DNA of 64,000 bases from Chloracidobacterium sp. (GTDB lineage Bacteria; Acidobacteriota; Blastocatellia; Chloracidobacteriales; Chloracidobacteriaceae): positions 186,001 through 250,000 of the forward strand of contig JANWUV010000004.1 in the NCBI GenBank assembly GCA_025057975.1. Direction: 5' to 3'. Below are positions 2,095-39,330 of this stretch, piece by piece. The translations under genes and the position numbers were made by a program. The notes under the pieces are model-generated. The model saw only the letters and a list, made by a program, of their open reading frames with translations, did no database searches and was not told the DNA's origin. Position 1 is the first letter of the stretch, and each line of letters starts with the position of its first letter.

Positions 2095-2409
2095 GGCGCG
2101 TCCACCTCGCAAAATAACAATGACAACAAGGGATCGCGGGGTTGAGGCGCGCCGCCCCCTCCCCGCCGGGGTTTTCGTTCTTTATCCAACGTACATCACC
2201 GTCACCGGACGGACGGGGATTTTTTGAGCCGGGTTTCAGATTTTTGTGGACGCGACATCCCAGCGGACGAAGACAATTTCAATGCTAGCGTTTGTAATCC
2301 ACTTCCTGAAACAGGGCTTTGGTCGTCCCTGCGCGCTTGAACCGGCGTACGGGGTTCTTGGTTGCGTGAACGACAGCCTTTGACACCTTGTCCATAAAGG
2401 GTTTCGCTT
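2095..2409. other. Intergenic region upstream of bchE
   Basis: No gene is supported here. It should hold the bchE promoter on the minus strand and whatever drives the decayed sigma factor on the plus strand. A short GC-rich palindrome followed by T residues (around 2159-2180) is visible, but no plus-strand gene ends before it. I see no clear cobalamin riboswitch. Confidence 0.4.
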
Positions 2410-4849
2410 ATGCCTGACGCCGGCGCGGTACTCGCATCTCCCCCGGTCGCACCAACGACCGGCGCGCGTGTTCAGCCCACGGTTGAGCATCCGGCGACCG
2501 TTAACCGGTTTGTGGAAGAAGTCTATGCTGAGTTGCGGCGGCTTGCGCATGCGCACATGCGGCGTGAACGCCCCGGCCATACCCTCCAAACCACGGCGCT
2601 GGTGCATGAGACCTACCTACGGCTGGCCAGCTGCAAAAACATCAGCCTCCGCGATCGCCGGCAATTTTTCAGCTTGGCGAGCCGCATGATGCGGTGCATT
2701 CTCGTGGATTACGCCCGTGGGGTGGCCGCCGCCAAACGTGGCGGCCGGCGCACATCTGGTCATTCACCGCGACCTGAAGCTGGGCAACATTCTGGTTTTG
2801 GACGACACCGAAGCTGATTGACTTCGGCATCGCCAAGCTGCTGGCGGAGCAAGAGCGGGCGACTAAACGGCGCACCACCACGATTCAGCGTGCGATGATG
2901 CTGCCATACGCTAGCCCCGAACAGGTGCGGGGAGCCGGTCACCACTACCTCAGATGTGTATTCGTTGGGGGGTGGCGCTGTACGAACTGTTGACGGGTTC
3001 GCTGCCGTTTTGCGCCGCAGAGGGATCGCCGTCGCTGGAGTAGTCGCTGGAGTATCAGACTTCAACATGTCGAGTTCAACATGTCGAGCCAACGCCTCCC
3101 AGCGCAGTGACGGGCAACTGTGACGTGGCGGGCGACTTGGACGCCATCCCTTTGCGCGCCATGCATAAGGACTCGCAGGCGCGCTACGCCCCGGCGGAGC
3201 AACTGGCCGCCGACATCGAGCGCTACCTGCAGGAGTGGCCCGTCTTGGCGCGTGGAGCGTCGGCTAGCACAGGAACGCGCCGAACAACGATTTCAGGATA
3301 CTTGGCGGCTGGCGTGGTCGAATGTCTTTGAGCTGCCTGACGCCATCGCGCGGCTGTCCGGTTCAACAGCAGTGCGGGGCTGTTAGTGCAACAGACCCTG
3401 GGGTATCTGGATCGCCTCGGTCAGGAAGCCGGCGCTGACCCAACCTTCCACCGGGAGTTGGGACGCGCGTATATCCGCGTTGGCAAGGTTCAAGGAAGGC
3501 CCTACACAGCGAATCTCGCCGACGTACCTGGCGCGCAACAAAGTTATGCAACCGGCTTGCTATGGCTAGAAAAGGCGCATCAGGCGCGGCCGGCTGATTC
3601 GGCGCGTCAACGTGATCTGAGCGTTAGGCACATAGCCGAGTTGCTGATGTACCGGCTTGGCGACTTTCCTCAAGCACGGCGGCATTTGGAGCGCGCGGCG
3701 GCGCTCCGCAAAGCCTTGACTGAGGCGCACCCCAGAGACCCGGAAGTAGAGTATTTCAACGCGACGTTGGCGATTGCGGAGGGCGATTGATACCACACGC
3801 AAGGCAATGTCGCCGAAGCCTCAGACGGTTTGACGTTGCCCACCACATCTTGGCGCTACTCGCCACGGTGCCGACAGCCGAACCGGATCACCGGCGCAAG
3901 CTGGCCGGAGCGCTTTAGCGCAAAGTGTATTGCTTGGTGTCCCTTGGCTTATGTGCTGAAAACGCAGGACTGCCGGTCGAGGCGAAAATGACGTACCTGC
4001 GGGCGTTGGAACTGCGCCGGACAGCCCTGGCGCTGCGGAGACAACTGGCGGCGGCGAATCCGGCGTCGGTTAAGTTGCGGCGGTCGGTGCTAGACAGTCT
4101 AGTGGACGAAGCCGTGATTACCGGCCGGCTGGGGCGTTACGCGACGGCGCGGATGCTCTTTGAGAACGTCTTTGGGCAATTTCAGGCGCTGGCGGCAGAG
4201 GATCAGACCAACCGCGAGACATGGTTTCTTTATTGAGCTGCTTTGCGATGATGGAGGAGGCGGCCGGTCGGCCAAAAGCCGCGCTGGCGCAATGGAGACG
4301 AATTGAAGTTTTGGCGCACAGATTGGCGGAAGCCGGTTGCGTTGGGAAGGAGGCTCAAGTGGTGTCGTCTGAAACACTGGCCAACGTGATGCGGCTGACG
4401 GCGCAGTGCGGAAACCGGAAAGCAGCACTGGCCGCCGCGCGTGAGTTTGAAACCCACCTCGCCGCCTTCCCGCCTGATGAACTCCGCCGTATGTCGTACC
4501 TGCTAGGGTTGTTGAAGTCTACCGACGATCGAATGAACACGAAGCCGCTCAGTGGGTACAGGCGTCGTTGGCGGAATGGTTGGCGCAAACTGATACGGCA
4601 TCGGCGATGCCTGAAGTCAGCGGCCTAGCGGCGGACATCTACTTAGACGAACAAGCTCCCGACCTCGCAAATCCGCACCAGGCGGTTGAGTTAATGCAGC
4701 GCGTCATGGCGCAACTCGGCGACGGACGGTTGTTGCTGATGCCGCTGCTTGTCAAAGCGTTGGAGCGTGTCGGCGACCGCGACGGTGCCGAGCGTCAACG
4801 CCGAGTGCATGCGCACACCCTACGCACACTGTACGGAGAGCATGCCTGA
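2410..4849 (+). pseudogene. Decayed ECF sigma factor fused by deletion to a Ser/Thr kinase with TPR tail
   Basis: From 2410 to about 2755 the frame encodes an acidobacterial ECF sigma factor start: FVEEVYAELRRLAHAHMRRE, TLQTTALVHETYLRL and FFSLASRMMRCILVDYAR. The sequence then jumps, out of frame, into the middle of a protein kinase: HLVIHRDLKLGNILVL, then DFGIAKLL, then YASPEQVRG. Past 3107 comes GDLDAIPLRAMHKDSQARYA with a C-terminal kinase helix, then TPR-like pieces (3386-3790, 3925-4236, 4221-4628, 4568-4849) in changing frames with stops between them. I read this as a deletion joining two neighbouring genes, followed by several frameshifts. The kinase lacks its ATP-binding lobe, so no function is expected. 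Confidence 0.8.
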
Positions 4850-4922
4850 GTGACGGAAAGCGCAGGCGTCCTACCGGCAAGAAAATCGTCGGTTGGAAGC
4901 TCTGGTCTCGACGGGTGCGCGT

Positions 4923-6299
4923 TCAGCCAGCGGCGCAGCGCGCCACTGACTTGGCGGTTTCAGGGAGCGTCGCGCGCAAATTGGCTATGACGTGGGCGGC
5001 GCAGGCGTGGCCACTCGTCACAGCGCTCTCAATTGTGGCGGGCAGTTCCGTATTCGTCCAGTCGCCAGCCAAGTAAAACCTTGCAACGCCAATCTTGTGC
5101 GGCGGACGGAGGCTTTCCGCTGCGGGCGTCGCCGAAAAAGTCGCTTGCTGCTCCTTGATAACCCGCGCGTGAACTAGTTGCGCCTTATTGACCTTTGACG
5201 TAACCCGCTTTAAATCGTCTAAAGCCAGATTAATCAAGTCTTTAGCCGGCATGTGGGCGATGTCGTAAGCGGCGCTGACGACCAGTGCGAGATGGTGTAA
5301 GCCGGAGACCGGCGTCGTGAACGCCCGCTTATTGAAAACCCACTGGATGGTCGTCCCGATGAGACCAACAAACGGCGCGTCAAAGATCGGCCGGTCAAAC
5401 CATAGGTTGACCGATACAATCGGCGAACTGGTCAGCCGAGCGGCGTTCGGAACGAGTTCACCGGCGTACTTGGCGACATCGTGCGGCGGGGCGCTGCTAA
5501 TGCAGGCGGCGGCCGGAATAGCTTCCCCATTCGCCAAAACAACGCCGGTAAAGCGTCCGCGCTCGACGCGCACCGTTTTGACGGCGGCCTGTAACCGTAC
5601 CGCGCCGCCGCGCGCTTCAATGAAGCGCCGCGCCTGCTCGACGTACAACTCGCTCAAACCAACGGTTGGAAAGACCAGCTTTGAGTCGTCAAAACTTCCG
5701 CCGAAGCCCTGATGCAGGACGCGCATGAGCAGGACGGCGGCGGCGCGCTCCGGCGACTCATTCAGCGTGGCGGTGACAAGCGGATCCCAAAATCGTTTCC
5801 GCATGCGCGGCGACTGCCGACAGTCGCGCAGCCAGTCAGCGACCGTCGCCTCCGCGTAGCGGGCGCGATAGTTCTGCTTGGCGCGCAAAAGATTCCACCC
5901 GACGCGCAGCGTCCCCAGCTTATCGGCCGGCGACAGCCCACCCAAACGGAGCAGTCCAGCCACCATGTGCAGCGGCGCGGGCAGCGGCGGACAGATGAAT
6001 GACGCCGCGCCGTCCGGCGCAAGGAAATCTACGCGCGGCGCATCAAAGGCGCGTACGAGGTGTCGGCTGCCGATCCGTTCCAGAAAGCGCAGCGTCTCGT
6101 GGTAGCAGCCCATCATCAGGTGCTGGCCGTTGTCCACCGTGTCACCGGTGGGTTCGTCCCGCAGCGAATAGGCGCGGCCGCCGAGGCGAGGACGGCGCTC
6201 AAGCACCAGTACGCGCACACCTTGTTCGGCCAGCGCTGTCGCCGCCGCCAGCCCGGCGAAGCCACCGCCAATCACGATGCATTCCCAAGGCGCTGTCAT
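4923..6299 (-). CDS. hpnE: Hydroxysqualene dehydroxylase-type FAD desaturase
   Basis: HpnE is an FAD-dependent amine oxidase-fold enzyme that finishes squalene formation in bacterial hopanoid synthesis. The 458-residue protein begins with a dinucleotide-binding motif IVIGGGFAGLAAATAL and the acidic strand end LVLERRPRLGGRA. VDNGQHLMMGCY near residue 57 is the hallmark that separates HpnE from phytoene desaturases. The C-terminal FAD motif is FYLAGDWTNTELPATIES. It is transcribed leftward behind the LysM gene, 63 bases from it. hpnA at 21125 supports hopanoid synthesis in this organism. A carotenoid desaturase is the main alternative but fits the DNGQH motif less well. Confidence 0.85.
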   Translation of the reverse strand: MTAPWECIVIGGGFAGLAAATALAEQGVRVLVLERRPRLGGRAYSLRDEPTGDTVDNGQHLMMGCYHETLRFLERIGSRHLVRAFDAPRVDFLAPDGAASFICPPLPAPLHMVAGLLRLGGLSPADKLGTLRVGWNLLRAKQNYRARYAEATVADWLRDCRQSPRMRKRFWDPLVTATLNESPERAAAVLLMRVLHQGFGGSFDDSKLVFPTVGLSELYVEQARRFIEARGGAVRLQAAVKTVRVERGRFTGVVLANGEAIPAAACISSAPPHDVAKYAGELVPNAARLTSSPIVSVNLWFDRPIFDAPFVGLIGTTIQWVFNKRAFTTPVSGLHHLALVVSAAYDIAHMPAKDLINLALDDLKRVTSKVNKAQLVHARVIKEQQATFSATPAAESLRPPHKIGVARFYLAGDWTNTELPATIESAVTSGHACAAHVIANLRATLPETAKSVARCAAG

Positions 6300-12851: not shown

Positions 12852-13047
12852 GGGCGTCGAACAGTCCTTGCGTGGTGTCGCAGCTGCCCGTGCAGCAAGT
12901 GAAGCCTGCGAGGGTACTGAATTCCCCGTATGAGCGCAATTGGTGTTTTAGGCGGTGGTCGCCGTAGCAGGCGCCGATGTTCGGTTTGCGTTTGAGGGCG
13001 CGGACTTTTCGGCTTACTTGAAAACTGCGCCCATGGTTATCTGGCCG

Positions 13048-26166: not shown

Positions 26167-26460
26167 ATGCCCGCCCCGCGTGAAGCCTTGTTTGTCGTAG
26201 CCTACGATGTCGTCTCCGACCGACGGCGCAACCTGCTGCGCAAGACGTTGATGCGTTACGGCGCGCCCGTTCAGTACAGTGTCTTTGAGTGCCGGTTGAC
26301 GCCGGAGCGGTTGGCGATGTTGCAGGACGAAGTGCGCCGCATCATCCTACCCGCCGTGGACAGCATCATCTACGTAGAGTTTTGCAAGGGCTGTGCGCGA
26401 ACAACCCGCAACCTGGGCGTCGCGCCCAACCGACCTCTCCTGCCGTTTTACGTCTTTTGA
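26167..26460 (+). CDS. cas2: CRISPR-associated endoribonuclease/adaptor Cas2 (copy 1)
   Basis: Cas2 dimers bridge Cas1 dimers during spacer capture. This 97-residue copy has the ferredoxin-like opening ALFVVAYDVVSDRRRNLLRK with the conserved Asp, then VQYSVFECRLTPERL and IIYVEFCKGCAR. It is transcribed rightward between the DUF4407 and CARF-HEPN genes, away from cas1. Its sequence differs strongly from the second cas2 at 28903, so it is not a recent duplicate. GGAGG lies just before the ATG. It may have been recruited from another locus or serve a role other than adaptation. Confidence 0.9.
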   Translation: MPAPREALFVVAYDVVSDRRRNLLRKTLMRYGAPVQYSVFECRLTPERLAMLQDEVRRIILPAVDSIIYVEFCKGCARTTRNLGVAPNRPLLPFYVF

Positions 26461-26483
26461 TTTCTGTGAAAGGGAGCATTGCC

Positions 26484-27728
26484 ATGCGTCAAGCGTCGCG
26501 TCATGTCGTCGCCGGCTTCATCGGCACGGGCAAACAGAAGGAAACCGGCTCCGGCTACGAGCCGACGACCTACCATTTCCCCAATCAGACCAAGCACGAA
26601 GCGTCGGTCTTCGGCGTCGCGTTGTTGAAGTATCTCGCTGCACAGGGACGACCGGCGCAGCGGTGGTTGGTGATGGGTACGGCGCAGTCCATCTGGGATG
26701 CGCTCGTGGAAATTGTTCCCGAAACTCAGTGGGCGTCCATTGAGTCGGTGTGGGATGAAGTCGGTCAAGCCGTCCGCGAAAAGGCCATGACGCAGGCGGT
26801 GCTCGATCGGTGGTCGGCGGCGCTGACGGCGGCGGCCGGGCTGGAAGTCGTCTGCGCGCTGGTCGGCCCGGCGGATGACCGCGATTCGCAGATGCGCGTC
26901 TGGCAGGCGATGTACGAGCAAACGGGCGTCGGCGACCACCTCACGCTTGACATCACGCACGGCTTTCGTCACCAGCCGGTGCTGATGACGTTTATGGCGA
27001 CGACGCTGCGGTGGTTTCGGCGGTTGGCGCGGGTGGACATGTACTACGGCGCGCTGGAGTTGCAGCAGCGCGTCATTGAGCTTCCGCTGTGCAACGACTT
27101 TCTCGACATCGCCGAGGCGCTGGCGACCTACCGGTACACGGACGACTTCAGCCAATTGGTCAACGTCTTTGGGCGCGTGACGCAACCGGAGGAGACGTTG
27201 CTGCGCGATCTTGAGCGCGTCGCCTTTGCCGACAGCGTGAATCGCTTCCCGCGTCATGCGGTGGAAGGTGCGCAGCGCGGCTTGAAAAACTGCGCGGAAG
27301 GAAGCGCCCTTGACCGCGCGCTGGCCGAAGCCCTTGGCGAGTCGGTCGGGTGGATCACCGAGCCTTCTTTTGCCGCCCGCTTGCGCCGCAAGGCTGAGGC
27401 GGCGTTTGAATCCAACCAGCTTTTGAAAGGGATTGTTTTGCTTTACGAGGCGATCTGCGTCGCGGGTTGTCAGCGATTCCAGACGGGCGACCCGCTCAAC
27501 TATCGCTCTCGTCACGGCGCGAAGGAGGCTCTTGAAAATGATCCAGTCTATAAAGACGCATTTGTCGCCGTCAGGAACTTACGCAACAGCGTCGCGCATG
27601 GTACCGCGCCGGAAAGCGCCGAACTGCATGCCGCGCTCGACTTTACCAATCCAAAAGCCGCGCGCGCGCAAATTGATGGCATTGTCAACTGCGGTTTCAA
27701 GCTGCTTGATGATTTGACGGCTCCGTAG
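26484..27728 (+). CDS. CARF-HEPN effector ribonuclease (TM1812/DxTHG family)
   Basis: The 414-residue protein has an N-terminal CARF domain that would bind cyclic oligoadenylate made by Cas10. The diagnostic DxTHG motif is LDITHGFRHQPVLM near residue 157. The C-terminal HEPN domain carries the RNase motif RNLRNSVAHG (R-x4-H) near residue 378. This is the organisation of Csx1/TM1812 effectors of type III CRISPR, which cut RNA when the second messenger is present. The ATG at 26484 follows AAAGGGAG; an open frame extends upstream into cas2 but is not needed. It closes the DUF4407-cas2 operon. Cas10 is not in the window. Confidence 0.88.
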   Translation: MRQASRHVVAGFIGTGKQKETGSGYEPTTYHFPNQTKHEASVFGVALLKYLAAQGRPAQRWLVMGTAQSIWDALVEIVPETQWASIESVWDEVGQAVREKAMTQAVLDRWSAALTAAAGLEVVCALVGPADDRDSQMRVWQAMYEQTGVGDHLTLDITHGFRHQPVLMTFMATTLRWFRRLARVDMYYGALELQQRVIELPLCNDFLDIAEALATYRYTDDFSQLVNVFGRVTQPEETLLRDLERVAFADSVNRFPRHAVEGAQRGLKNCAEGSALDRALAEALGESVGWITEPSFAARLRRKAEAAFESNQLLKGIVLLYEAICVAGCQRFQTGDPLNYRSRHGAKEALENDPVYKDAFVAVRNLRNSVAHGTAPESAELHAALDFTNPKAARAQIDGIVNCGFKLLDDLTAP

Positions 27729-27862: not shown

Positions 27863-28153
27863 ATGAATCTGGAAGAACGTCTACAAAGACACCGCGAGGC
27901 GATTCTGGCGTTGGCGGCAAAGCATGGGGCGCGGAATGTGAGAGTCTTCGGCTCGGTGGCGCGCGGCGAAGCGCGGCCGGACAGTGATATTGATCTGCTG
28001 GTCAAAATGGAAGAAGGGCGAAGCTTGCTGGATATATGCGCTTTATCCGCCGACTTGCGCGAGTTGCTGGGCTGTCCCGTGGATGTTGTCTCTGAAGACG
28101 GGCTTTACTGGTTGCTGCGCCGTCGCATTCTTGAGGAGGCTAAGCCTTTGTGA
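27863..28153 (+). CDS. mntA: MntA-type minimal nucleotidyltransferase antitoxin
   Basis: The 96-residue protein carries the nucleotidyltransferase signature VFGSVARGEARPDSDIDLLV (GSxxRG...DxD) and the distal VDVVSEDGLY. MntA adds AMP to its partner HepT and so neutralises the HepT ribonuclease. The gene overlaps hepT by four bases (GTGA), the usual coupling of this toxin-antitoxin pair. Its position between the CARF operon and cas1-cas2 fits the common clustering of HEPN-MNT modules in defence islands. Confidence 0.88.
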   Translation: MNLEERLQRHREAILALAAKHGARNVRVFGSVARGEARPDSDIDLLVKMEEGRSLLDICALSADLRELLGCPVDVVSEDGLYWLLRRRILEEAKPL

Positions 28154-28536
28154 GCAAGGATACGCGCGTCTATCTGGCGCAGATTCTAGAGCGCATCAGC
28201 AGAATCCTTGATTACACCTCTGAGGGACGGCAGTCCTTCATGAATGACATGCGGACGCAAGACGCTGTTATCCGTAACCTTGAGGTGATTGGCGAGGCAG
28301 TCAAGCGTATCCCTGAAGAATTTCGGAAGGCTCATCCACACATCCCATGGCGAGCTTTGGCAGGCTTGCGCGATGTGTTGATTCACCAGTATGACAGCGT
28401 CAATCCGGCTGAAATCTGGCAGGCTATAGATGCCGACTTGAAACCGTTACAAGCGGAAATCCAAGCCGCGCTGCTCCAACTGGAGCAGCCGCAAGAGGAA
28501 GTTGTGAAGGAGACAAAGGAAACTGGAGAAGACTAG
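28150..28536 (+). CDS. hepT: HepT-type HEPN ribonuclease toxin
   Basis: The 128-residue helical protein has the HepT motif RDVLIHQY (R-x4-H-x-Y) near residue 73, preceded by IRNLEVIGEAVKRIPEE, a strong DUF86 signature. HepT cleaves RNA unless AMPylated by MntA. The start is GTG at 28150, inside the mntA stop. The C-terminus has a Gln/Glu-rich tail beyond the usual domain. The module is complete and looks active. Confidence 0.88.
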   Translation: MSKDTRVYLAQILERISRILDYTSEGRQSFMNDMRTQDAVIRNLEVIGEAVKRIPEEFRKAHPHIPWRALAGLRDVLIHQYDSVNPAEIWQAIDADLKPLQAEIQAALLQLEQPQEEVVKETKETGED

Positions 28537-28902: not shown

Positions 28903-29181
28903 TCACCACACAATCACGTCAAGGTCTTCGCGCAGGCGTGTGTCGCCGCAGGCGCAACGCCGCGCGCGGCACGCAGCGCACAACCGGTAGAGTCGGACGG
29001 CATCCACGCGCCGGTTGATAACCTTTTTCAAATCGTCAATCAGCTCGCCCACCTGCTCGTCGCGCAGCCAACACTCAAAGACGCTCTTCTGAACGCGCCG
29101 CCCGTAGCGTTCGGCCGTCTCCATGACGCGCCGCAGCCGGCGTGGATCGCGGATGTCGTACGTCAACAGAATGAACTGCAT
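28903..29181 (-). CDS. cas2: CRISPR-associated protein Cas2 (copy 2)
   Basis: This 92-residue Cas2 begins FILLTYDIRDPRRLRRVMET with the conserved Asp and continues VQKSVFECWLRDEQVGEL. It ends with a Cys-rich stretch (YRLCAACRARRCACGD). It lies downstream of cas1 on the same strand with a 68 bp gap, so it is the likely partner of this Cas1 in adaptation. The array lies upstream and is transcribed in the same direction. Confidence 0.92.
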   Translation of the reverse strand: MQFILLTYDIRDPRRLRRVMETAERYGRRVQKSVFECWLRDEQVGELIDDLKKVINRRVDAVRLYRLCAACRARRCACGDTRLREDLDVIVW

Positions 29182-29249: not shown

Positions 29250-30248
29250 TCAGTGCCAGCCGCGAAAGGGTAGGTAGGGCGTCCCATCGAGGATGGTTTT
29301 CTGAAGCGCCTCGGCCTGTTCGTAGAGCGCGCGGCGCAGGGTTGTCCGCGTCTTGGTTCGGGCGTTGGTGAACTCGCGCGTCATGAGCCGCTCGTACTCG
29401 TAGAGAAACCGCTTCCGCGCCTCGTCGTTGAGCAGGACGCCGCCCTCTTCGGTTTTTATGAAGTCTTCGAGTTCGACAATCGCCAGATTGACCATGTTGA
29501 TGGCGAGGCGGTCGGCGGTGATGGGACGGAACTCCTCGATGAGGTCGAGCGCCAGCGAGCAGCGGCTGTAGAGGACTTCGTGCAAGAAACCGAAGTAGGG
29601 ATCGAGTCCCACGCCGGCGACGGCGGCGACGGCTTCGTTGAGGAGCAGAGAGTAGCCGAAGCTCAGCAGGGCGTTGACCGGATCGGTCGGCGGTCGGCGT
29701 GTCCGTTTTTCAAAGGTGAAGCCGCGTCGGAAGAGGCTGCCGAGGGCTTTGAAGTACACGGCGGCGGCGTTGCCTTCGACGCCGCGCAGTTCGTCGAGGT
29801 CGGCGGCGCGTTCGATACGCGGGCCGACGCTGGAAAGGAAGTCAATGGCGTCGCCGAGGTTGAGTTCGGGATGGTTGCGCTGTTGGCGCGCGAGGTTTTC
29901 GACGCCGTTGGCGACCTTGGCTTGGACGAAGGTTTTGGCCAGCGCCAGTTTGAAGACTGGATCGTTGACGCGCTCAAACTGCCGGGCGCGCAAGGGGGCG
30001 TTTTTGGATTCGAGCGCGGCGAGTCGTCCTTTGAAGCGGCCGGTGACGGTCACAAAGGTGGTGTCAATGCCGGAGGCGAGCAGGTGGCTGATGGCGGCGG
30101 TTGAAAGCTGGATGTGACCGAAGACGACGACCCGTTCCACTTGGAAGTCGTGGACTTCGGCAATAACGCGGCCGTCGCGTTCGAGAGCGAAACGGTTATC
30201 GCGCTTATGGAGTGTTGTGTTTTGTTCGGTCAAGTAAAGCGTCGTCAT
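29250..30248 (-). CDS. cas1: CRISPR-associated integrase Cas1
   Basis: Cas1 integrates new spacers at the leader end of the array. The 332-residue protein has an N-terminal beta domain (TTLYLTEQNTTLHKRDNRFA, then GIDTTFVTVTGRFKGRL). The catalytic helical domain carries the metal ligands Glu in GVEGNAAAVYF near residue 150, His in GFLHEVLYSRC near 223, and the Glu/Asp in ALDLIEEFRP near 237. The ATG at 30248 is chosen because it starts MTTLYLTEQ like homologues and follows AGGAG; the open frame extends another 65 residues without family resemblance. There is no reverse transcriptase fusion. Confidence 0.95.
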   Translation of the reverse strand: MTTLYLTEQNTTLHKRDNRFALERDGRVIAEVHDFQVERVVVFGHIQLSTAAISHLLASGIDTTFVTVTGRFKGRLAALESKNAPLRARQFERVNDPVFKLALAKTFVQAKVANGVENLARQQRNHPELNLGDAIDFLSSVGPRIERAADLDELRGVEGNAAAVYFKALGSLFRRGFTFEKRTRRPPTDPVNALLSFGYSLLLNEAVAAVAGVGLDPYFGFLHEVLYSRCSLALDLIEEFRPITADRLAINMVNLAIVELEDFIKTEEGGVLLNDEARKRFLYEYERLMTREFTNARTKTRTTLRRALYEQAEALQKTILDGTPYLPFRGWH

Positions 30249-30667
30249 AGCGGTCGGCTCTCCTGCGGGAAATGATGTTGGCGAGAGCCTACCGTTGTTG
30301 AGCGAGGGGTGTTGGACAGGCAAGCTTGCCGGCGCTTTGCGTAGGGAAAGCAACGCGCTTCTCAAATTGGAGCAGTTTCCGCGTAAAGGGGAGAGATAAC
30401 CGGTTGAATCGCGTCCACGGTTTGGAGCCGGTACTGCGTCCAATCCGCCGCCAAACCCAGCAGAGCGATAACCAGTTGAATCGCGTCAATGGTTTGGAGT
30501 GCGGCGGCTTGACGCGCCGGATGGCTTCCCAGCTTGTCTTGGGACAACGAACCGCCACGCCTTCCAGCGTGGCACGTGGCGTCGAGCCGCCACGCAGGAA
30601 AGCGGCGGAACGCCCCGCACTCCAAATAGCGGGCTAACTCGCTACGTTGTCTCGGAAACTGCTCTAG
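30249..30667. repeat. Repeat-rich region between cas1 and the distal end of the array
   Basis: It holds two direct copies of a 33 bp unit (30395-30427 and 30467-30499, core GTTGAATCGCGTC) and the right 56 bp copy of the flanking repeat (30571-30626). These are the same sequence family as in 28585-28865. No gene is supported. The cas1 promoter must lie close to 30249. Confidence 0.65.
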
Positions 30668-33600
30668 CCGCGTCTTCAATCCTTCAATCCAAAGCGAATG
30701 GCTTTGCGACGAAACCGGCAAGGCATTGTCGGCGTTTCAATCTGCTTTTAGTCGCGTCTTCAATCCAAAGTCGCTTCACTGTTGGAGGAATAGTTTGACA
30801 CATAGGCTTAGTTTCAATCCGCTTGTAAGCGCGTCTTCAATCCAGAGGGCAACACTTTCCAATTCAAGGATCAGCTCAAGGCCTTCGGCGCTGTTTCAAT
30901 CCGCTTGTAAGCGCGTCTTCAATCCAGAGGCGTCCCCGCAGAGATAGCGGGGACGGCGCACCCGGTGGTGGTGTTTCAATCCGCTTGTAAGCGCGTCTTC
31001 AATCCAGAGCCGCAACATAGCTTGGGACTCTATCATCAACGAGTACCTAGAAGTTTCAATCCGCTTGTAAGCGCGTCTTCAATCCAGAGACTTAGCCGCC
31101 TTTCAGCGCCTTGCCGCCGCCGCCGGTTGCAAGTTTCAATCCGCTTGTAAGCGCGTCTTCAATCCAGAGAGAGAATGGAATTCAAATACATCATTCCTTG
31201 CGTTGGGGTAGTTTCAATCCGCTTGTAAGCGCGTCTTCAATCCAGAGTAGGGCGGTAAATAGGGAGGAGTTATGGAATTGAAAGGCTTGTTTCAATCCGC
31301 TTGTAAGCGCGTCTTCAATCCAGAGCACAGTTAGTTGATTTCGCGCCTACCGTTACGGCGCGCTAGGTTTCAATCCGCTTGTAAGCGCGTCTTCAATCCA
31401 GAGGAAGCACGCCCGCTGTGTGCTGGGAACACACAGCGGGTTTTTATGGTTTCAATCCGCTTGTAAGCGCGTCTTCAATCCAGAGCTCAATTCAGCTGTC
31501 ATCACTGGACCAGGGGTTTACAGCTATAGTTTCAATCCGCTTGTAAGCGCGTCTTCAATCCAGAGACCGGACCCGGAGTGTTCTGGTACGCCCTCATTAC
31601 CCCGGCCCAGTTTCAATCCGCTTGTAAGCGCGTCTTCAATCCAGATTCAGCGGTTATAACCGGACCCGGAGTGTTCTGGTACGCCCGTTTCAATCCGCTT
31701 GTAAGCGCGTCTTCAATCCAGAGCCGGCGCAAGGCCGGGATAGGGTAAACACAGAGGCCGCGCGTTGGTTTCAATCCGCTTGTAAGCGCGTCTTCAATCC
31801 AGAGAACAGGCTGCAAGTAAGCCTCAATGTCGGCGACCAGGCACGTTTCAATCCGCTTGTAAGCGCGTCTTCAATCCAGAGGACTTCGCCGTTTTCGCGC
31901 GCACGGAGGCGCGCACAAGCGTGTTTCAATCCGCTTGTAAGCGCGTCTTCAATCCAGAGGATATATTCTCAATTCCGCGGTCCTCACTGGACCCGGAGTA
32001 TGTTTCAATCCGCTTGTAAGCGCGTCTTCAATCCAGAGTTTCGCGCCTACCGTTACGGCGCGTCAGAAATAGGGCGGTAAGTTTCAATCCGCTTGTAAGC
32101 GCGTCTTCAATCCAGAGGTCTTGGCTAGCCGCCCAGCCGAAAAGGGCGGCAAAGGATAGGGGGTTTCAATCCGCTTGTAAGCGCGTCTTCAATCCAGAGA
32201 TCACGATAGACGACCAGTTACTTTCGCGCTCGCGTCAAAAGCGTTTCAATCCGCTTGTAAGCGCGTCTTCAATCCAGAGGGCTTTGGTGTTTCGCCTCGC
32301 CTTCCCGCCGGGAACGCCGCGGGTTTCAATCCGCTTGTAAGCGCGTCTTCAATCCAGAGGCGGCAAATGGAGAGGCAGAGATGAGATACATTCTCAACTC
32401 CGCGTTTCAATCCGCTTGTAAGCGCGTCTTCAATCCAGAGCTGTCCGCCCTTTTAGGGCGGACGGTCGAAGTAAACCGGGTGCGTTTCAATCCGCTTGTA
32501 AGCGCGTCTTCAATCCAGAGGTGCCCGAAGTGCCCGAAAGATACCAAGGTAACTCAATAGTCGTTTCAATCCGCTTGTAAGCGCGTCTTCAATCCAGAGA
32601 TCAGGCCCTGGTCTGTCGGCTGCGAAACCGGCCGACGGCCGTTTCAATCCGCTTGTAAGCGCGTCTTCAATCCAGAGACGGCCGAGCTTCTGTCCGCCCT
32701 TTTAGGGCGGACGGTCGAGTTTCAATCCGCTTGTAAGCGCGTCTTCAATCCAGAGCGGCCGGAATAGGCGGTATGTAAAAGGAGGAAAAAATGGCAAGGT
32801 TTCAATCCGCTTGTAAGCGCGTCTTCAATCCAGAGGTCGCGCCAGGCGCGACGCCGCTAAGAGCGGCAATCAAGCCCAGTTTCAATCCGCTTGTAAGCGC
32901 GTCTTCAATCCAGAGGTCCTGGGGTGTTCTGGTACATTACTATTACCCCAGACCAGGCGTTTCAATCCGCTTGTAAGCGCGTCTTCAATCCAGAGGCCGC
33001 CGCCTACTTGGCGGCGGTCGAGGCCGGTCTTGACGCGCGTTTCAATCCGCTTGTAAGCGCGTCTTCAATCCAGAGGGGCGGCAAAGGGTAAGAAGGGATG
33101 TTCCTGTTCTTCCTTTTGTTTCAATCCGCTTGTAAGCGCGTCTTCAATCCAGAGTTTCAAGAAGGCCAGTTTTCACGCCGACAAGGAAGCAGGTATGTTT
33201 CAATCCGCTTGTAAGCGCGTCTTCAATCCAGAGGGGCGTTCGTCACGTGGAGTGGTGTCAAGATTTTGAGGTCGGCCGTTTCAATCCGCTTGTAAGCGCG
33301 TCTTCAATCCAGAGGGTATATCCTCAACTCGGCCGTCATTACGACGGCCGGCAGCTGTTTCAATCCGCTTGTAAGCGCGTCTTCAATCCAGAGAGAACCG
33401 GGTTTTTCGACGCGCGGGTAACGCGCGCCGAAGTAAGTTTCAATCCGCTTGTAAGCGCGTCTTCAATCCAGAGGGGCTTTCACCTCGACGGTCGGGTACG
33501 CCGAGACCGCCGAGGCTGTTTCAATCCGCTTGTAAGCGCGTCTTCAATCCAGAGCCATTTTGGAGGCAAGTATGAAGACGAAAGACTTGAAGCGGAGTTT

Positions 33601-36600
33601 CAATCCGCTTGTAAGCGCGTCTTCAATCCAGAGGAGGCCAGGAAGTGGCTGCGAAAAGAGATTTTTACCTCGGCGAGTTTCAATCCGCTTGTAAGCGCGT
33701 CTTCAATCCAGAGCTTGAAAAAAAGGGGAAGGTCGCGCCAGGCGCGACGCCGCTAGTTTCAATCCGCTTGTAAGCGCGTCTTCAATCCAGAGGATGAAAT
33801 ACATCTTGAATGCGGCCGTTATAACCGGCCCAGGGTTTCAATCCGCTTGTAAGCGCGTCTTCAATCCAGAGCAAACATAACCCCCAAAACGGCTCCGGCG
33901 CGGGAATCATTTTGGTTTCAATCCGCTTGTAAGCGCGTCTTCAATCCAGAGCGTGTAAAGGCCCTACGCCTCAATGATGAGGCCCTAGTGGCCGTTTCAA
34001 TCCGCTTGTAAGCGCGTCTTCAATCCAGAGGTCTTCCTCTTAGTTCTAGCGCTTCGTGCGCTGGAAGGAAGAAGTTTCAATCCGCTTGTAAGCGCGTCTT
34101 CAATCCAGAGAATACCCGGTCGACCGGTCGAACCGCACGACGTGCGGTTCGGGGTTTCAATCCGCTTGTAAGCGCGTCTTCAATCCAGAGGAAAATACTT
34201 GACAAGGTGCTCACATCCGAGTACTATACCCACAGTTTCAATCCGCTTGTAAGCGCGTCTTCAATCCAGAGGGGCGTGACGGTTACCCACACATCGCTCC
34301 GCGTCCGCGCCTTGTTTCAATCCGCTTGTAAGCGCGTCTTCAATCCAGAGCGTGCTAATGTAGAGACACTCTTGGCTAGCCGCCCAGCCGAAAGTTTCAA
34401 TCCGCTTGTAAGCGCGTCTTCAATCCAGAGGGCAAGATATGTCCTCAATTCCGCTGTTATCACGAATCCCGGGAGTTTCAATCCGCTTGTAAGCGCGTCT
34501 TCAATCCAGAGTCAAAAAGTAAATAACCCTTGAAAAAAAAAGGGGTAGGTCGTTTCAATCCGCTTGTAAGCGCGTCTTCAATCCAGAGTTTCGCACGGGT
34601 TGAAGCGCGCACAACGCTTGTGCGCGCAACGTTTCAATCCGCTTGTAAGCGCGTCTTCAATCCAGAGTTAGCCTCAATGCCGGAGATGAGGCCCTAGTCT
34701 GCAGGCTAAAGTTTCAATCCGCTTGTAAGCGCGTCTTCAATCCAGAGTTGGTACGTCATCATCACTCCATCCCAGGCCCAGACCTGGGCGTTTCAATCCG
34801 CTTGTAAGCGCGTCTTCAATCCAGAGTTGTCCGGCCTTTTCGGCCGGCCCGTCAGGGTCAACAGGGTCGTTTCAATCCGCTTGTAAGCGCGTCTTCAATC
34901 CAGAGCGGTGCGCGCTTCAAAGCCCACTGGGTCACGCTTACCGGCGGGTTTCAATCCGCTTGTAAGCGCGTCTTCAATCCAGAGAACAGGGTCCAGGTGA
35001 CCCTGAATGTAGGGGACCAGGCACTGGGTTTCAATCCGCTTGTAAGCGCGTCTTCAATCCAGAGGTCAATAGAATCCAGGTTACTTTGAATGTCGGGGAC
35101 CAGGCCGTTTCAATCCGCTTGTAAGCGCGTCTTCAATCCAGAGCTGAAGTATTCCCAGGGTATCACTACCAGCCACTTACGGCCAGGGTTTCAATCCGCT
35201 TGTAAGCGCGTCTTCAATCCAGAGAATCTGTGGGGAAGCGTATAACCTATGCGCTTCCCCTTGTTTCAATCCGCTTGTAAGCGCGTCTTCAATCCAGAGA
35301 GCGCAAGGAAGCCGTCGCCGACTGTGGCGACGGGCTAGTGGGTTTCAATCCGCTTGTAAGCGCGTCTTCAATCCAGAGCCGCGGTAATCCCCAACGCGGG
35401 ACTGTATTGGTACGCTTTATTAAGTTTCAATCCGCTTGTAAGCGCGTCTTCAATCCAGAGCTGGGCCGGGGATGAGGAGTGGATATCCGCCGTCGGCCAC
35501 GGGGTTTCAATCCGCTTGTAAGCGCGTCTTCAATCCAGAGGTAACCCCTAAAAAAAAAGGGGGTAGGAAAAAGAAGTCGCGCCAGTTTCAATCCGCTTGT
35601 AAGCGCGTCTTCAATCCAGAGTTCCTCCTCCTTCTGGCGCTTCGTGCGCTAGAAGGGCGGACAGTTTCAATCCGCTTGTAAGCGCGTCTTCAATCCAGAG
35701 TGGAAAATGTTCCTGTTCTTCCTTCTTGTCCTTGCTCTCCGTGGTTTCAATCCGCTTGTAAGCGCGTCTTCAATCCAGAGCTTCTTGCCGGTTACGGCGG
35801 CTGAAGCTTGGCGCGCGGCGGAAGTTTCAATCCGCTTGTAAGCGCGTCTTCAATCCAGAGGGCACTTACATCCGAGTACTATGCCCACAGTTAGTTGATT
35901 CCGTTTCAATCCGCTTGTAAGCGCGTCTTCAATCCAGAGGGAAGTCGCCGACGCCGCTCGGCGTCGCGCGGCTTCCAAAGAGTTTCAATCCGCTTGTAAG
36001 CGCGTCTTCAATCCAGAGGGCCGAAAAGGGCGGCAAAGGATGGAGGATGTTTCTGTTCTTCGTTTCAATCCGCTTGTAAGCGCGTCTTCAATCCAGAGTC
36101 TTCCTTCTTGTTCTAGCGCTCCGCGCGCTAGAAGGAAAAACGTTTCAATCCGCTTGTAAGCGCGTCTTCAATCCAGAGTTAACCGTATCCAGGTTAACCT
36201 CAATGCCAAAGATGAAGCCCTAGTTTCAATCCGCTTGTAAGCGCGTCTTCAATCCAGAGAATATATGGACTTGAAAGACTTCGCCGTTTTCGCGCGCGTT
36301 GGTTTCAATCCGCTTGTAAGCGCGTCTTCAATCCAGAGAGGACCCTATCCCGGCGCAAGGCCGGGATAGGGTAAACAGAGAGGTTTCAATCCGCTTGTAA
36401 GCGCGTCTTCAATCCAGAGTCTTGGCCGGCCGCCCGGCCGAAAAGGGCGGCAAAGAATGGAGTTTCAATCCGCTTGTAAGCGCGTCTTCAATCCAGAGTG
36501 GAACCCGCAACCGGCGGAAATATTGTCGGCTTCAGTAGGGTTTCAATCCGCTTGTAAGCGCGTCTTCAATCCAGAGGGAAGTGTGTTCCTGTTCTTCCTC

Positions 36601-36971
36601 TTAGTTCTAGCGCTTGTTTCAATCCGCTTGTAAGCGCGTCTTCAATCCAGAGGAAGTGTCGGAAAACTGGACTTCGCAGTGTTTATCGGCGCTGTTTCAA
36701 TCCGCTTGTAAGCGCGTCTTCAATCCAGAGGAACTTAACCCCGTGCCTCGTTGGAGGCACAGGAACCGGGAAAGTTTCAATCCGCTTGTAAGCGCGTCTT
36801 CAATCCAGAGGTAACTCCGGCCCAGGCCCAGACCTGGGCCGGGGATGAGGAATGTTTCAATCCGCTTGTAAGCGCGTCTTCAATCCAGAGTTTCACGGAG
36901 GCTTCAAATGCTAACATCGCATCAATACTTCAAAGTTTCAATCCGCTTGTAAGCGCGTCTTCAATCCAGAG
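30668..36971 (-). CRISPR. CRISPR array, about 79 spacers, 37 bp repeat
   Basis: There are 78 near-identical 37 bp repeats, beginning on the + strand GTTTCAATCCGCTTGTAA and ending CTTCAATCCAGAG. They run from 30811 to 36971, with a mutated copy at 30734 and a partial one at 30668. Spacers are 38-45 bp, average period about 79.5 bp. Read on the minus strand the repeat ends GGATTGAAAC, the usual 3' end in the crRNA direction. The decayed copies lie at the left. Both facts place the leader at the right and transcription leftward. Read as + strand codons, about 28 spacers encode variant pieces of one DUF1874-like protein and about 25 more fall into four other target clusters (see findings). No array-internal open frame is a gene. 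Confidence 0.99.
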
Positions 36972-37160
36972 GCTGCACTCGTAACCCCTTTGCTGTCAAT
37001 AGCCAAATAGCCCCTTTTGGCTAACCCGACCGGCACGACCAGCAACGGCACAAGCCGCCGCCGGCACGCCAAAAGCTAACTGTTTTCAAAGAAAGGACTT
37101 CCCCAGTTGGCTAACCTCCCCCCTTTTGGGGCGTGGACGGGGTTAGCCAACGGGTTGGCT
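36972..37160 (-). promoter_or_regulatory. Probable CRISPR leader
   Basis: This is the sequence next to the last perfect repeat, on the side expected for the leader. It contains the word TTGGCTAAC at 37017 and 37107 and its complement at 37142. GTTGGCTAACC (37106-37116) and GGTTAGCCAAC (37141-37151) form a perfect 11 bp inverted repeat enclosing a nested CCCC/GGGG hairpin. Such repeats could bind a host factor or Cas1-Cas2. The exact transcription start cannot be fixed by eye. Confidence 0.6.
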
Positions 37161-38166
37161 GGCAGGTGGAGGTACGCCTACCGCCAGCTGGCGTCCGGCA
37201 CAGTAAGCGTTCTTGGTTGCTGCAAGCAAGCGCTGGCGGCGGAGGCACGGCCGCTAATGTCGCAAAGCCTCTGCCCTCCCCATACACCCACCCCAGTCAC
37301 CGGCAAACTGTCCCTTTCACCCCACAAGCTTTAGGCATATGCTTCTCTAAGCATATGTTTTCAAGGCAAATCACAAGAGCAATTCCTACTCCCGTGGAGC
37401 AATACCCTAGCGTGCGCTGCGTAGTGGTTTGGCGTGGGGAGTGTTCCGTCGCTTTTCCTGCGTATGGCCAACTGCGACGCGCTATACCAAAGGCTTGGCG
37501 ACAGTGCCTGCCAACGCTCCCTTCACGAAGCGGCGTGGACTCTCTAGGCAAAACGTGTGTCACCCCTCAACATGGTCAAGCGTCCTCAAAGCAAGTCGGT
37601 GCATTTCGGCTTCTAGCGCAGAACGCCGAGTCGGCGCGCGATTCACTCCCAAAGCCTACGCAGCCGACATAAAGCCGTCCCGCTCGACAGGGTAGGGACG
37701 ACCTAGGGCCGTTTTCGCATCAACGCAGCCATACCTAGCATGAACTAATAAGCGATTTGGCGTGTGCCAGCAGACGCCGCCACGCGCCAAGTGAGCGCCT
37801 AGCTCGCTGCGTTTTCTCAGCAAATACGCCAAACTTAGAAAGGTTGCTGCGTACGCTGCTCCGTCCTCGCTCCGATGGGCAGAAACGGTGATGTTACCCA
37901 CCGCACGGCGCACCCAAGCTTCCTCCTAATGCGCGTCTCAGGTAAAAAGCCCGCTATAGCGCCGGTTGCCAAACCACCTGCCGAGAAATCCCTTAGGAGC
38001 GCGCAAACAGCGCCCACAAGCTTGCAACAGTCGCCGTTGTCTGCTCCCCGCTACCAAGCTGAATGCGCTTTTTGCCAATCGGATACAAATCATCCATTCG
38101 TTGTTTCCGCCTTGCCGGAAGCGAAGCAGAGGCAGCAAAGCCAACCATCGTGTGAGGAACTAACCT
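37161..38166. other. Gene-free stretch between the leader and the CARF-winged helix gene
   Basis: About 1 kb without a supported gene. Open frames here have no family resemblance and conflict with each other. A perfect 9 bp stem-loop, CATATGCTT-CTCT-AAGCATATG, lies at 37336-37357. The region is less GC-rich than its neighbours and may be the remnant of a lost gene or carry an untranslated RNA; I see no positive evidence for either. Confidence 0.4.
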
Positions 38167-39330
38167 ATGTCCGCTCCGTCAAAACCAACCGACTACAAAC
38201 GCCGCATCCTACTTGTCGCTACAGGTCTGACGCCGCAGGTCGTGACGGAAACCGTGTACGCCCTGATTCGGCAGCAACCAGCTTTTATCCCAACGGAAAT
38301 CCACCTCGTGACAACCAAAGAAGGGGCGGAACGCGCCCGACTATCGCTGCTGTCGGCCGACCCCGGCTGGTTTCACCGGCTGCGCCAGGATTATCAGCTG
38401 CCGCCTATCGCGTTTGACAGCGAGCGCATCCACGTTCTCCAGGACGCGCAAGGCAACCCGCTCGACGACATCCGCTCGCCGCAAGACAATGAAGCCGCAG
38501 CGGACGCGCTGACGACGCTGGTACGCGATTTGACGGCCGATGACCAGTCGGCGCTGCACGTTTCGCTGGCCGGCGGACGGAAGACCATGGGTTACTACCT
38601 CGGCTATGCGCTGTCGCTGTTCGGACGGTCGCAGGATCGGCTGTCGCACGTGCTGGTGAGCGCCCCGTTTGAGTCGAGTTGGTCATTTTTCTATCCAACA
38701 CCCTACGAGCGCATCATTGAAACGAGCGACAAAAAACTGGTCGACTGTCGAGACGCCGAAGTCACGCTCGCTGAAATTCCCTTCGTCCGTTTGAGGAACG
38801 GCTTGCCGCCGCGTTTCTTGAAAGGTCAAGCGCGCATGAGCGACGTGGTGGCCGCCGCCAACCGCATGCTGCAACCGCCGCAGCTTGTGCTGGATGTGGC
38901 GCAGAAGCGCGTGTGGGCCGACGACATCGAGATTACTTTGACGCCGACCGAATTTGCGCTGCTGCTCTGGCTGGCCGAGCGCGTCAAAGCCGGCAAGCCG
39001 GAAGTGGATCGGAGCGCGCCGGAAGCCTGCGACGAGTTTCTGGAACAGGCAGGGCGCGTCATGAACAAGATGAGCGGCGATTATGAGCGGCTTGAAAAAA
39101 GCCTGCTTGGAGACAAAGAGGAAAAGAAGTCTGCGCGCAAAGGCGATCGCGTCTTGACGGCGAAATACTTCGAGCCGCATAAGTCGCGGATCAACAAGGC
39201 CTTTGAAGAGTCGCTCGGCGAACAGGCCGCCCAACGGTACGCCATCGAAAACGTCGGCAAGCGAAGCGATCCCCACCGGTCACGCTACCGCCTGACGCTC
39301 AAAGACGAGCAAATCATCATCCGCGAGTGA
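38167..39330 (+). CDS. NE0113-family CARF protein with a PhoB-like winged helix
   Basis: Residues 10-180 match the CRISPR-associated NE0113 family: ILLVATGLTPQVVTETVYAL, IHLVTTKEGAERARL, LDDIRSPQDN, SALHVSLAGGRKTMGYYLGY and HVLVSAPFESSWSFFYPTPY. This is a CARF domain, expected to bind cyclic oligoadenylate. Around residues 238-280 the text reads LDVAQKRVWADDIEITLTPT then EFALLLWLAERV, which resembles the wing and recognition helix of OmpR/PhoB regulators. The protein may therefore be a second-messenger-controlled DNA-binding protein. Some relatives are described as ring nucleases, so degradation of the messenger is an alternative. It is transcribed away from the array leader. Confidence 0.85.
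   Translation: MSAPSKPTDYKRRILLVATGLTPQVVTETVYALIRQQPAFIPTEIHLVTTKEGAERARLSLLSADPGWFHRLRQDYQLPPIAFDSERIHVLQDAQGNPLDDIRSPQDNEAAADALTTLVRDLTADDQSALHVSLAGGRKTMGYYLGYALSLFGRSQDRLSHVLVSAPFESSWSFFYPTPYERIIETSDKKLVDCRDAEVTLAEIPFVRLRNGLPPRFLKGQARMSDVVAAANRMLQPPQLVLDVAQKRVWADDIEITLTPTEFALLLWLAERVKAGKPEVDRSAPEACDEFLEQAGRVMNKMSGDYERLEKSLLGDKEEKKSARKGDRVLTAKYFEPHKSRINKAFEESLGEQAAQRYAIENVGKRSDPHRSRYRLTLKDEQIIIRE

Follow-up and report, generated by a model that had tools for sequence, protein, structure and literature searches.

Spacers of one strand in two Chloracidobacterium CRISPR arrays and their concentration on a PF08960 gene family

Why do the readable spacers of a clustered regularly interspaced short palindromic repeats (CRISPR) array all point one way, when the Cas1 beside it carries no reverse transcriptase (RT)? 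The array in question, A1, lies in a 64,000-nucleotide stretch of DNA from Chloracidobacterium sp. (assembly GCA_025057975.1, contig JANWUV010000004.1, positions 186,001 to 250,000), which we call the window and to which positions refer unless a contig is named. A preliminary description of the window had stated that A1 is transcribed leftward and that every spacer with clear coding content is sense on the + strand, giving CRISPR RNAs (crRNAs) antisense to target mRNAs as type III interference needs. We analysed A1 jointly with a second array, A2, of the same genome (G000; 86 contigs, 3.5 Mb). In our reading, to which we give a probability of roughly 0.7, A1 and A2 record the encounters of a type III (probably III-B) system with one invader family, and owe their one-sidedness to selection.

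The elements of the two arrays are as follows.

30734 to 36971, - strand: CRISPR array A1, 79 repeats of 37 nucleotides and 78 spacers of 38 to 45 nucleotides, leftward by leader and repeat orientation
30668 to 30733, no strand: decayed distal repeat remnants (trailer end)
36972 to 37330 (right end approximate), - strand: leader of A1, homologous to the A2 leader and block-wise to the leader of the array in genome G006
G000 contig C4, 179363 to 185097 (L011, 13363 to 19097), opposite orientation to A1: second array A2, same repeat, 72 spacers, near-identical leader

A2 is on the same contig as A1, outside the window. G006 represents a sister species; its array has a related repeat, and its cas1 is 83% identical over 332 residues. 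The interval 30668 to 37160, earlier taken as the array, holds for 30734 to 36971, while 36972 to 37160 belongs to the leader. Mutated repeats had been placed at the left end, where we find the decayed copies from 30668 and a degenerate repeat at 30734, the distal end of A1; degenerate repeats sit opposite the leader in both arrays. The flank from 36972 to about 37330 is near-identical to the A2 flank across most of its length, and it has blocks in common with the G006 leader. Since this right-hand flank is common to the A2 and G006 leaders, the leader is on the right, as had been proposed, and the array is read leftward. Leftward transcription of A1 is thus supported, as judged by leader and repeat rather than by RNA sequencing. 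The repeat reads GTTTCAATCCGCTTGTAAGCGCGTCTTCAATCCAGAG on the + strand, the 3' end of its minus strand is GGATTGAAAC, and ATTGAAAC is presumably the crRNA 5' handle.

The relative strand of the spacers was determined from ungapped overlaps among the 150 spacers of A1 and A2, with one odd 57-base A2 spacer retained; no database is required for this. At a score of at least 14 there were 73 same-strand pairs and no opposite pair. Lowering the score to at least 12 gave 86 and one, the sole opposite pair being a palindromic hairpin stem, and at least 6 gave 131 and two. A looser overlap count by BLAST had 145 same and 10 opposite pairs, 7 of the latter on hairpin stems as judged by eye. The pairs at score 12 or above join 82 of the 150 spacers into 22 groups, which corresponds to 60 independent relative orientations. 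Both arrays sample the same targets, 38 of the 86 pairs being between A1 and A2.

The PF08960 family provides an absolute direction. We scored the spacers with a profile of 7 family members from bacterial genomes (two of nine matches, L040 and L044, were left out), using the highest of 1200 shuffled scores as null maximum. The uniterated profile found 39 of 150 spacers in sense and none in antisense at the 99% level, and in a second run 32 and none above the null maximum. When iterated with the spacers themselves, it placed 52 of 150 in sense above the null maximum. Many antisense spacers, the outcome that would speak against one-sidedness, were thereby sought, and 0 of 150 was antisense above the same maximum. 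At the 99.5% level the counts were 55 sense and 3 antisense; two of these antisense spacers are hairpins with sense scores of 22 to 23. Among 583 spacers of other arrays, including G006 and two very small arrays, none exceeded the null maximum and 2 reached the 99.5% level. A PF08960 match, or an overlap with a spacer that has one, fixes the absolute strand of 56 of the 150 spacers; 42 in 13 groups have a relative strand only, and 52 have neither. The one-sidedness of the readable spacers is hereby confirmed, far above chance, and the earlier claim stands for these but not for every spacer. Leader side, overlaps and sense matches together support crRNAs antisense to coding sequence, as had been suggested. 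Two further measures are supportive but weak, a vote on synonymous changes in overlapping pairs (37 for +, 10 for -, 20 ties) and the counts of Shine-Dalgarno plus ATG (11 on +, 5 on -). Strand calling by codon usage was dropped, as it was right for only 24 of 39 spacers of known sense.

The spacers that match the family are listed here with two that cover its GH motif.

31486 to 36853, + strand: 25 A1 spacers encoding PF08960 peptides (99.5% level), from A1_10 (31486 to 31528) to A1_77 (36811 to 36853)
35461 to 35503, + strand: A1_60, encodes WAGDEEWISAVGHG, across the GH motif
33474 to 33517, + strand: A1_35, encodes AFTSTVGYAETAEA, of PF08960 type with the motif His replaced by Tyr as in L072

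The Shine-Dalgarno region is covered by A1_21 and A2_56 and the stop codon by A2_13, and coverage between them is interrupted by gaps. A composite of the spacer peptides matched PF08960 at 9e-18; it is a chimera of several variants, and the target is known from fragments. The composite also matched the solved chains of AFV3-109 (2j6b), STIV B116 (2j85), 'protein 114' (2x4i) and 6scf, as well as the CRISPR-associated protein chains 8y7f and 8y6z. We take 6scf and 2x4i to be AcrIII-1 proteins and 2x4i to be SIRV1 gp29, in whose numbering the GH-motif His would be H47. This His is kept in four of the five spacers over the motif; the fifth, A1_35, reads GYAETAEA, and so does the IMG/VR contig L072. 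Relatives are present in 50 records of phages and archaeal viruses, e.g. of rudi- and lipothrixviruses, which have DNA genomes. According to the available portion of one report, AcrIII-1 destroys cyclic tetra-adenylate (cA4), the H47A change abolishes the activity of SIRV1 gp29, and early expression is described for STIV B116 (PMC7213978). About a third of the spacers fall on one PF08960 family, which includes viral proteins known to disable type III immunity, and the spacer-encoded protein may itself be a ring nuclease.

The BLAST overlap rate suggests a target territory of about 4 kb. PF08960 matches are found in 1 of the 18 most distal (oldest) spacers and in 54 of the other 132; since the oldest are nearly free of them, the encounter probably postdates the founding of the arrays and then lasted. 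The host has a PF08960 gene of its own at C15:41934-42236 (L014), apparently among cobalamin-type genes (by eye), with a type III-B cas10 set some 23 kb away. It was not among the own-genome matches of A1 or A2. Such a gene is present in five of the seven genomes of the genus.

Other arrays were used for comparison. The G006 array had 5 same-strand pairs and no opposite pair, three of the five within one trio, and its spacers had no overlap with those of A1 or A2 at score 14. Same and opposite pairs in the genus arrays numbered 4 and 1 (L098), 11 and 1 (L099), 1 and 1 (L097), 1 and 0 (L094), 1 and 0 (L100), and 0 and 1 (L046); L093, L095 and L096 had no overlap pairs. A search of genome contigs with Cas1 alone found no relative, and a search with an alignment of two Cas1 sequences gave 70 loci, from which 31 arrays of at least 8 spacers (1379 spacers; smaller arrays left out) served as controls. 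In these arrays, beside related Cas1 genes of named genomes, there were 11 same-strand and 2 opposite pairs in total; 6 of the 11, with no opposite pair, came from the Blastocatellia array L105, which together with the G006 array may be taken as a replicate of the one-sidedness. Compared with the control arrays, A1 and A2 are conspicuous for their density of overlaps.

Overlap starts also differ. In A1 and A2 the start is exactly shared by 3 of 86 overlaps and differs by no more than 2 bases in 16 of 86, as sampling free of a protospacer-adjacent motif (PAM) would give; exact sharing in L099 (8 of 11) and L098 (2 of 4) is what PAM-anchored capture would give. The same-start spacers of L099 and L098 (arrays of G005 and G001; repeat GTGCAAAAATC...) differ by several substitutions, as if one protospacer of variant viruses had been captured repeatedly at a fixed anchor.

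Folding is a second peculiarity of the spacers. Against dinucleotide shuffles the 150 spacers were more folded, with a mean z of -1.4 to -1.5 (-1.27 with a damped formula). Cut to 36 nucleotides, they averaged -1.37, whereas 560 control spacers from the genus averaged -0.27 (P 3e-8). Two tiny control arrays were also low, L093 (5 spacers) at -1.75 and L095 (4 spacers) at -1.23, with G006 at -0.5 to -0.6; the 1379 spacers of the 31 other arrays had a mean of -0.22 and a lowest array of -0.77 (8 spacers). Genome windows in the same shuffle test gave -0.93 for MS2, -0.28 for phiX174 and -0.30 for P23-45.

We also permuted synonymous codons. The 55 PF08960 spacers had an observed mean of -12.3 and a permuted mean of -8.9 (Z -10.6), and Z was -6.7 when each overlap group was represented by a single spacer (25 spacers); host coding sequence gave -0.5 and the MS2 replicase -7.1. 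The excess per window was -3.4 kcal/mol for the PF08960 spacers. Six genes from MS2, Qbeta and PP7 had -1.1 to -2.3, seven from M13 and phiX174 had 0 to -0.8, and three from P23-45 had -0.1 to -0.9. Of three host genes cas10 was slightly folded (Z -2.2) and the other two were not; neither was the PF08960 gene of L073. In L072 (68 kb) the gene at 2395-3975 had -2.9 (Z -9.1), the PF08960 gene -1.6 and three others 0 to -0.9. Means per 500 bases were -0.5 to -1.7 in 501-6000 and -0.5 to 0.2 elsewhere in the same 10 kb, and 20 kb elsewhere gave -0.5 to 0.2 per kb. This contig (IMG/VR 3300031463_000006) thus has a hairpin-rich coding stretch at about 501-6000 around its PF08960 gene. The hairpin content of the PF08960 spacers is far above what their amino acids require; shielding of an early region from crRNAs, an RNA genome or mRNA regulation may be its cause. 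A covariation count on a C-terminal hairpin (A2_30, A2_33, A2_59) gave two pairs with changes on either side; shuffles did as well in 222 of 500 cases, and the three sequences are no evidence of covariation. One example from A1 is the following.

32441 to 32483, + strand: A1_22, encodes LSALLGRTVEVNRV inside a long hairpin (GTCCGCCC...GGGCGGAC)

How the one-sidedness arose depends on the acquisition and effector genes. The adaptation pair lies left of A1.

29250 to 30443, - strand: cas1, core beginning near 30251, no RT domain found
28903 to 29181, - strand: cas2

A domain search of Cas1 detected the Cas1 domain only, and an RT fused or adjacent to Cas1 was not found there, in agreement with the preliminary description. 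The sole RVT_1 match of the genome adjoins a bAvd-like gene, as in diversity-generating retroelements. That locus (C18; L066, 4436-9143) has the reverse transcriptase and bAvd-like genes with FGE-sulfatase and caspase-domain open reading frames (ORFs) alongside, and it resembles such a retroelement. Two type III-B cas10-cmr (Cas10/Cmr2) sets are present in the genome, on C15 and C2, the C15 Cmr3 scoring under the cut-off of its model. The genome thus has a type III effector, and either set may load the crRNAs of A1 and A2.

The course of events we propose is a long encounter with one invader family, most likely viruses. Cas1-Cas2 without RT would most likely capture DNA spacers irrespective of strand, and the leftward crRNAs would enter a type III complex that requires guides antisense to invader mRNA. 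Only spacers giving antisense crRNAs would then protect, the lineages holding them would persist, and the arrays would become one-sided. Spacers would concentrate on a few kilobases, presumably because the early PF08960 transcript has to be shut off while cA4 is not yet lost to the ring nuclease. RNA cleavage by the Cmr backbone is independent of cA4. In the available portion of a study of a Thermus type III system lacking RT, both strands had contributed spacers before selection, and it was selection that produced the strong bias (PMC7515739). Selection alone therefore suffices, and strand-aware capture is not needed to account for the bias.

Several observations weigh against this reading. 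No protospacer was found in phages, plasmids or sister genomes, nor in IMG/VR by patterns and one protein, which leaves the viral origin, transcription and timing of the target as presumptions. In detail, distant BLAST searches with A1 (30811-36971) gave one chance-level match each in phages and plasmids, and those with A2 none in phages and two chance-level matches in plasmids. Searches of the own genome and the genus returned the arrays, the repeats of the G006 array and a lone repeat on C19, and otherwise short matches of E 0.009 or weaker; a comparison of A1 with 57 relatives as well as its own genome gave short matches and stretches resembling repeats of other arrays, judged by spacing. 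(The lone copy, at C19:24006-24078, is 98% identical over 41 bases, has a partial second copy, and lies away from A1 and A2.) Of five patterns run on IMG/VR four had no match, and the fifth led to four stretches that match spacers over the pattern plus fragments of at most 15 bases (for L071, among the matches listed). A search of IMG/VR with one protein gave PF08960 relatives in L072 and L073, with no spacer match above 14 bases. The other L072 proteins against the 95 non-PF08960 spacers had 3 in + and 2 in - above the null maximum, and 5 and 5 at score 32, i.e. no signal. The remaining points are that the absolute strand is fixed for just the 56 spacers given above; that both cas10 sets lie away from A1 and A2, with no adjacency; that a simple scan of 36900-37900 found no sigma-70-like promoter; and that selection did not predict the hairpin excess. 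Passengers are missing as well: in the Thermus study, as far as its available portion goes, 3.2% of reads had two new spacers, and these more often included cold-region spacers (PMC7515739), so some passenger spacers would be expected, and none is seen in A1 and A2. Finally, one spacer may come from upstream of a start site and still have the same orientation.

34191 to 34234, + strand: A1_44, sigma-70-like promoter (TTGACA-17-TACTAT) or ORF end (KILDKVLTSEYYTHS*), both by eye; overlaps A1_65

The promoter in A1_44 was considered as proof of a DNA target and set aside, since its bases can also be taken for an ORF end.

Strand-aware capture, in which spacers are taken from transcripts or from single strands linked to transcription and inserted one way, with selection minor, is in our judgement unlikely. 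It would explain why 52 PF08960 spacers and 60 independent orientations leave room for few passengers, and a single-stranded source might give hairpin-rich spacers. However, Cas1 lacks an RT domain and the only RVT_1 match belongs beside the bAvd-like gene; even RT-Cas1 orients spacers weakly in what is available of the Marinomonas report (PMC5576922), and selection by itself yields a strong bias in Thermus (PMC7515739). The hairpins moreover recur in the three PF08960 gene stretches that were laid out, and so look like a property of the target.

We consider it quite improbable that the target is an RNA replicon, such as a virus, that carries a PF08960 gene, exists mostly as plus-sense RNA and is folded throughout its genome. 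The folding of the PF08960 spacers, above that of the MS2, Qbeta and PP7 genes, the many target variants and the estimated territory of about 4 kb are in its favour. Against it, no RT is linked to Cas1, PF08960 relatives are found in viruses with DNA genomes (such as rudi- and lipothrixviruses), and no replicase was recognised by eye in the translated spacers, where no RNA-dependent RNA polymerase search was made, peptides of some 14 residues being too short for one. With its 68 kb L072 is too long for a known RNA phage, yet hairpin-rich around its PF08960 gene; a DNA virus is for this reason preferred as the default.

It is hardly credible that repeated hairpins or duplicated spacers only simulate the one-sidedness: hairpins in many spacers do blur the strand, but the 150 spacers all differ from one another, their overlaps have varying offsets and a mean identity of 86%, PF08960 peptides span the start region to the stop codon in one direction only, and the control arrays have no comparable overlap density.

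Selection acting on a type III memory is hence the explanation we keep. We tentatively add a doubtful idea, an arms race over RNA shape, in which the crRNAs would be trained mainly on the transcript of the invader's AcrIII-1-like gene and the invader would recode this region into a chain of hairpins, concealing it from type III crRNAs; a variant of it would be a folded RNA virus with an anti-type-III ring nuclease.

Some other spacers and the neighbouring genes remain to be recorded.

35701 to 35743, + strand: A1_63, start of a small hydrophobic ORF (MFLFFLLVLALR..., by eye), sampled by other spacers too
26167 to 26460, + strand: second cas2-like gene
26289 to 27728, + strand: Csx1-type CARF-HEPN gene, given as the longest ORF, which overlaps the cas2-like gene at its start; the true start is probably downstream
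38167 to 39330, + strand: CARF protein Cas_NE0113 (TIGR02584, named CRISPR-associated ring nuclease Csm6)

A1_63, A1_68, A1_74, A2_52 and A2_53 appear by eye to be variants of one tiny hydrophobic ORF (about MFLFFLLVLALRALEGKTLFKK) that was sampled repeatedly. A hairpin element GCCGCC...AAAA...GGCGGCAAA is found in A1_18, A1_46 and A1_72, and by eye a similar hairpin occurs in the host past the A2 leader (L011, about 12920-12955); a pattern search with 2 mismatches returned two spacers only. Between csx1 and cas2, at 27863-28536, an apparent nucleotidyltransferase (by eye) is followed by a HepT-like protein (53 bits versus a model cut-off of 60), possibly a toxin-antitoxin pair.

The arrays are a large natural case of strand bias in a type III-like array with no RT at Cas1, and the relative strand of overlapping spacers is a measure of such bias that needs no protospacer. 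If the target is read correctly, CRISPR memory is here aimed at the very gene that disarms CRISPR. The hairpin excess leads to the testable question of whether folding of coding sequence can protect transcripts from type III interference. The open PMC literature, to which the search was confined, yielded no account of spacers crowding on an AcrIII-1 gene or of coding sequence folded to counter type III immunity. Phages with anti-CRISPR (Acr) genes are targeted by spacers in one paper, whose available portion does not describe spacers on the Acr gene itself (PMC12259885).

Among known systems, the AcrIII-1 or STIV_B116-like proteins (PF08960) are matched by the spacer peptides from start region to C-terminus, with the His in four of five; the difference is that here only fragments are seen, one of which has Tyr in its place. 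Single-stranded RNA phages (MS2, Qbeta, PP7) likewise have coding sequence folded above synonymous permutations, but folding is stronger here and the gene content, by eye, is unlike that of Leviviricetes. The Marinomonas type III-B system also requires antisense for interference; it differs in its RT-Cas1, which is absent here, and, in the available portion of the report, in a nearly strand-unbiased acquisition with slight orientation (PMC5576922). The type III system of Thermus thermophilus likewise has Cas1 without RT and one-sided spacers antisense to mRNA, which for one phage are packed into a narrow early region; as far as the available portion goes, an anti-CRISPR in that hot region was only suggested, and laboratory infections were studied, whereas here 150 spacers of natural arrays cover many variants with PF08960 as the main target (Artamonova 2020, PMC7515739). 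Strand bias by selection is thus already known: the direction of these arrays is ordinary, and it is the target that is unusual.

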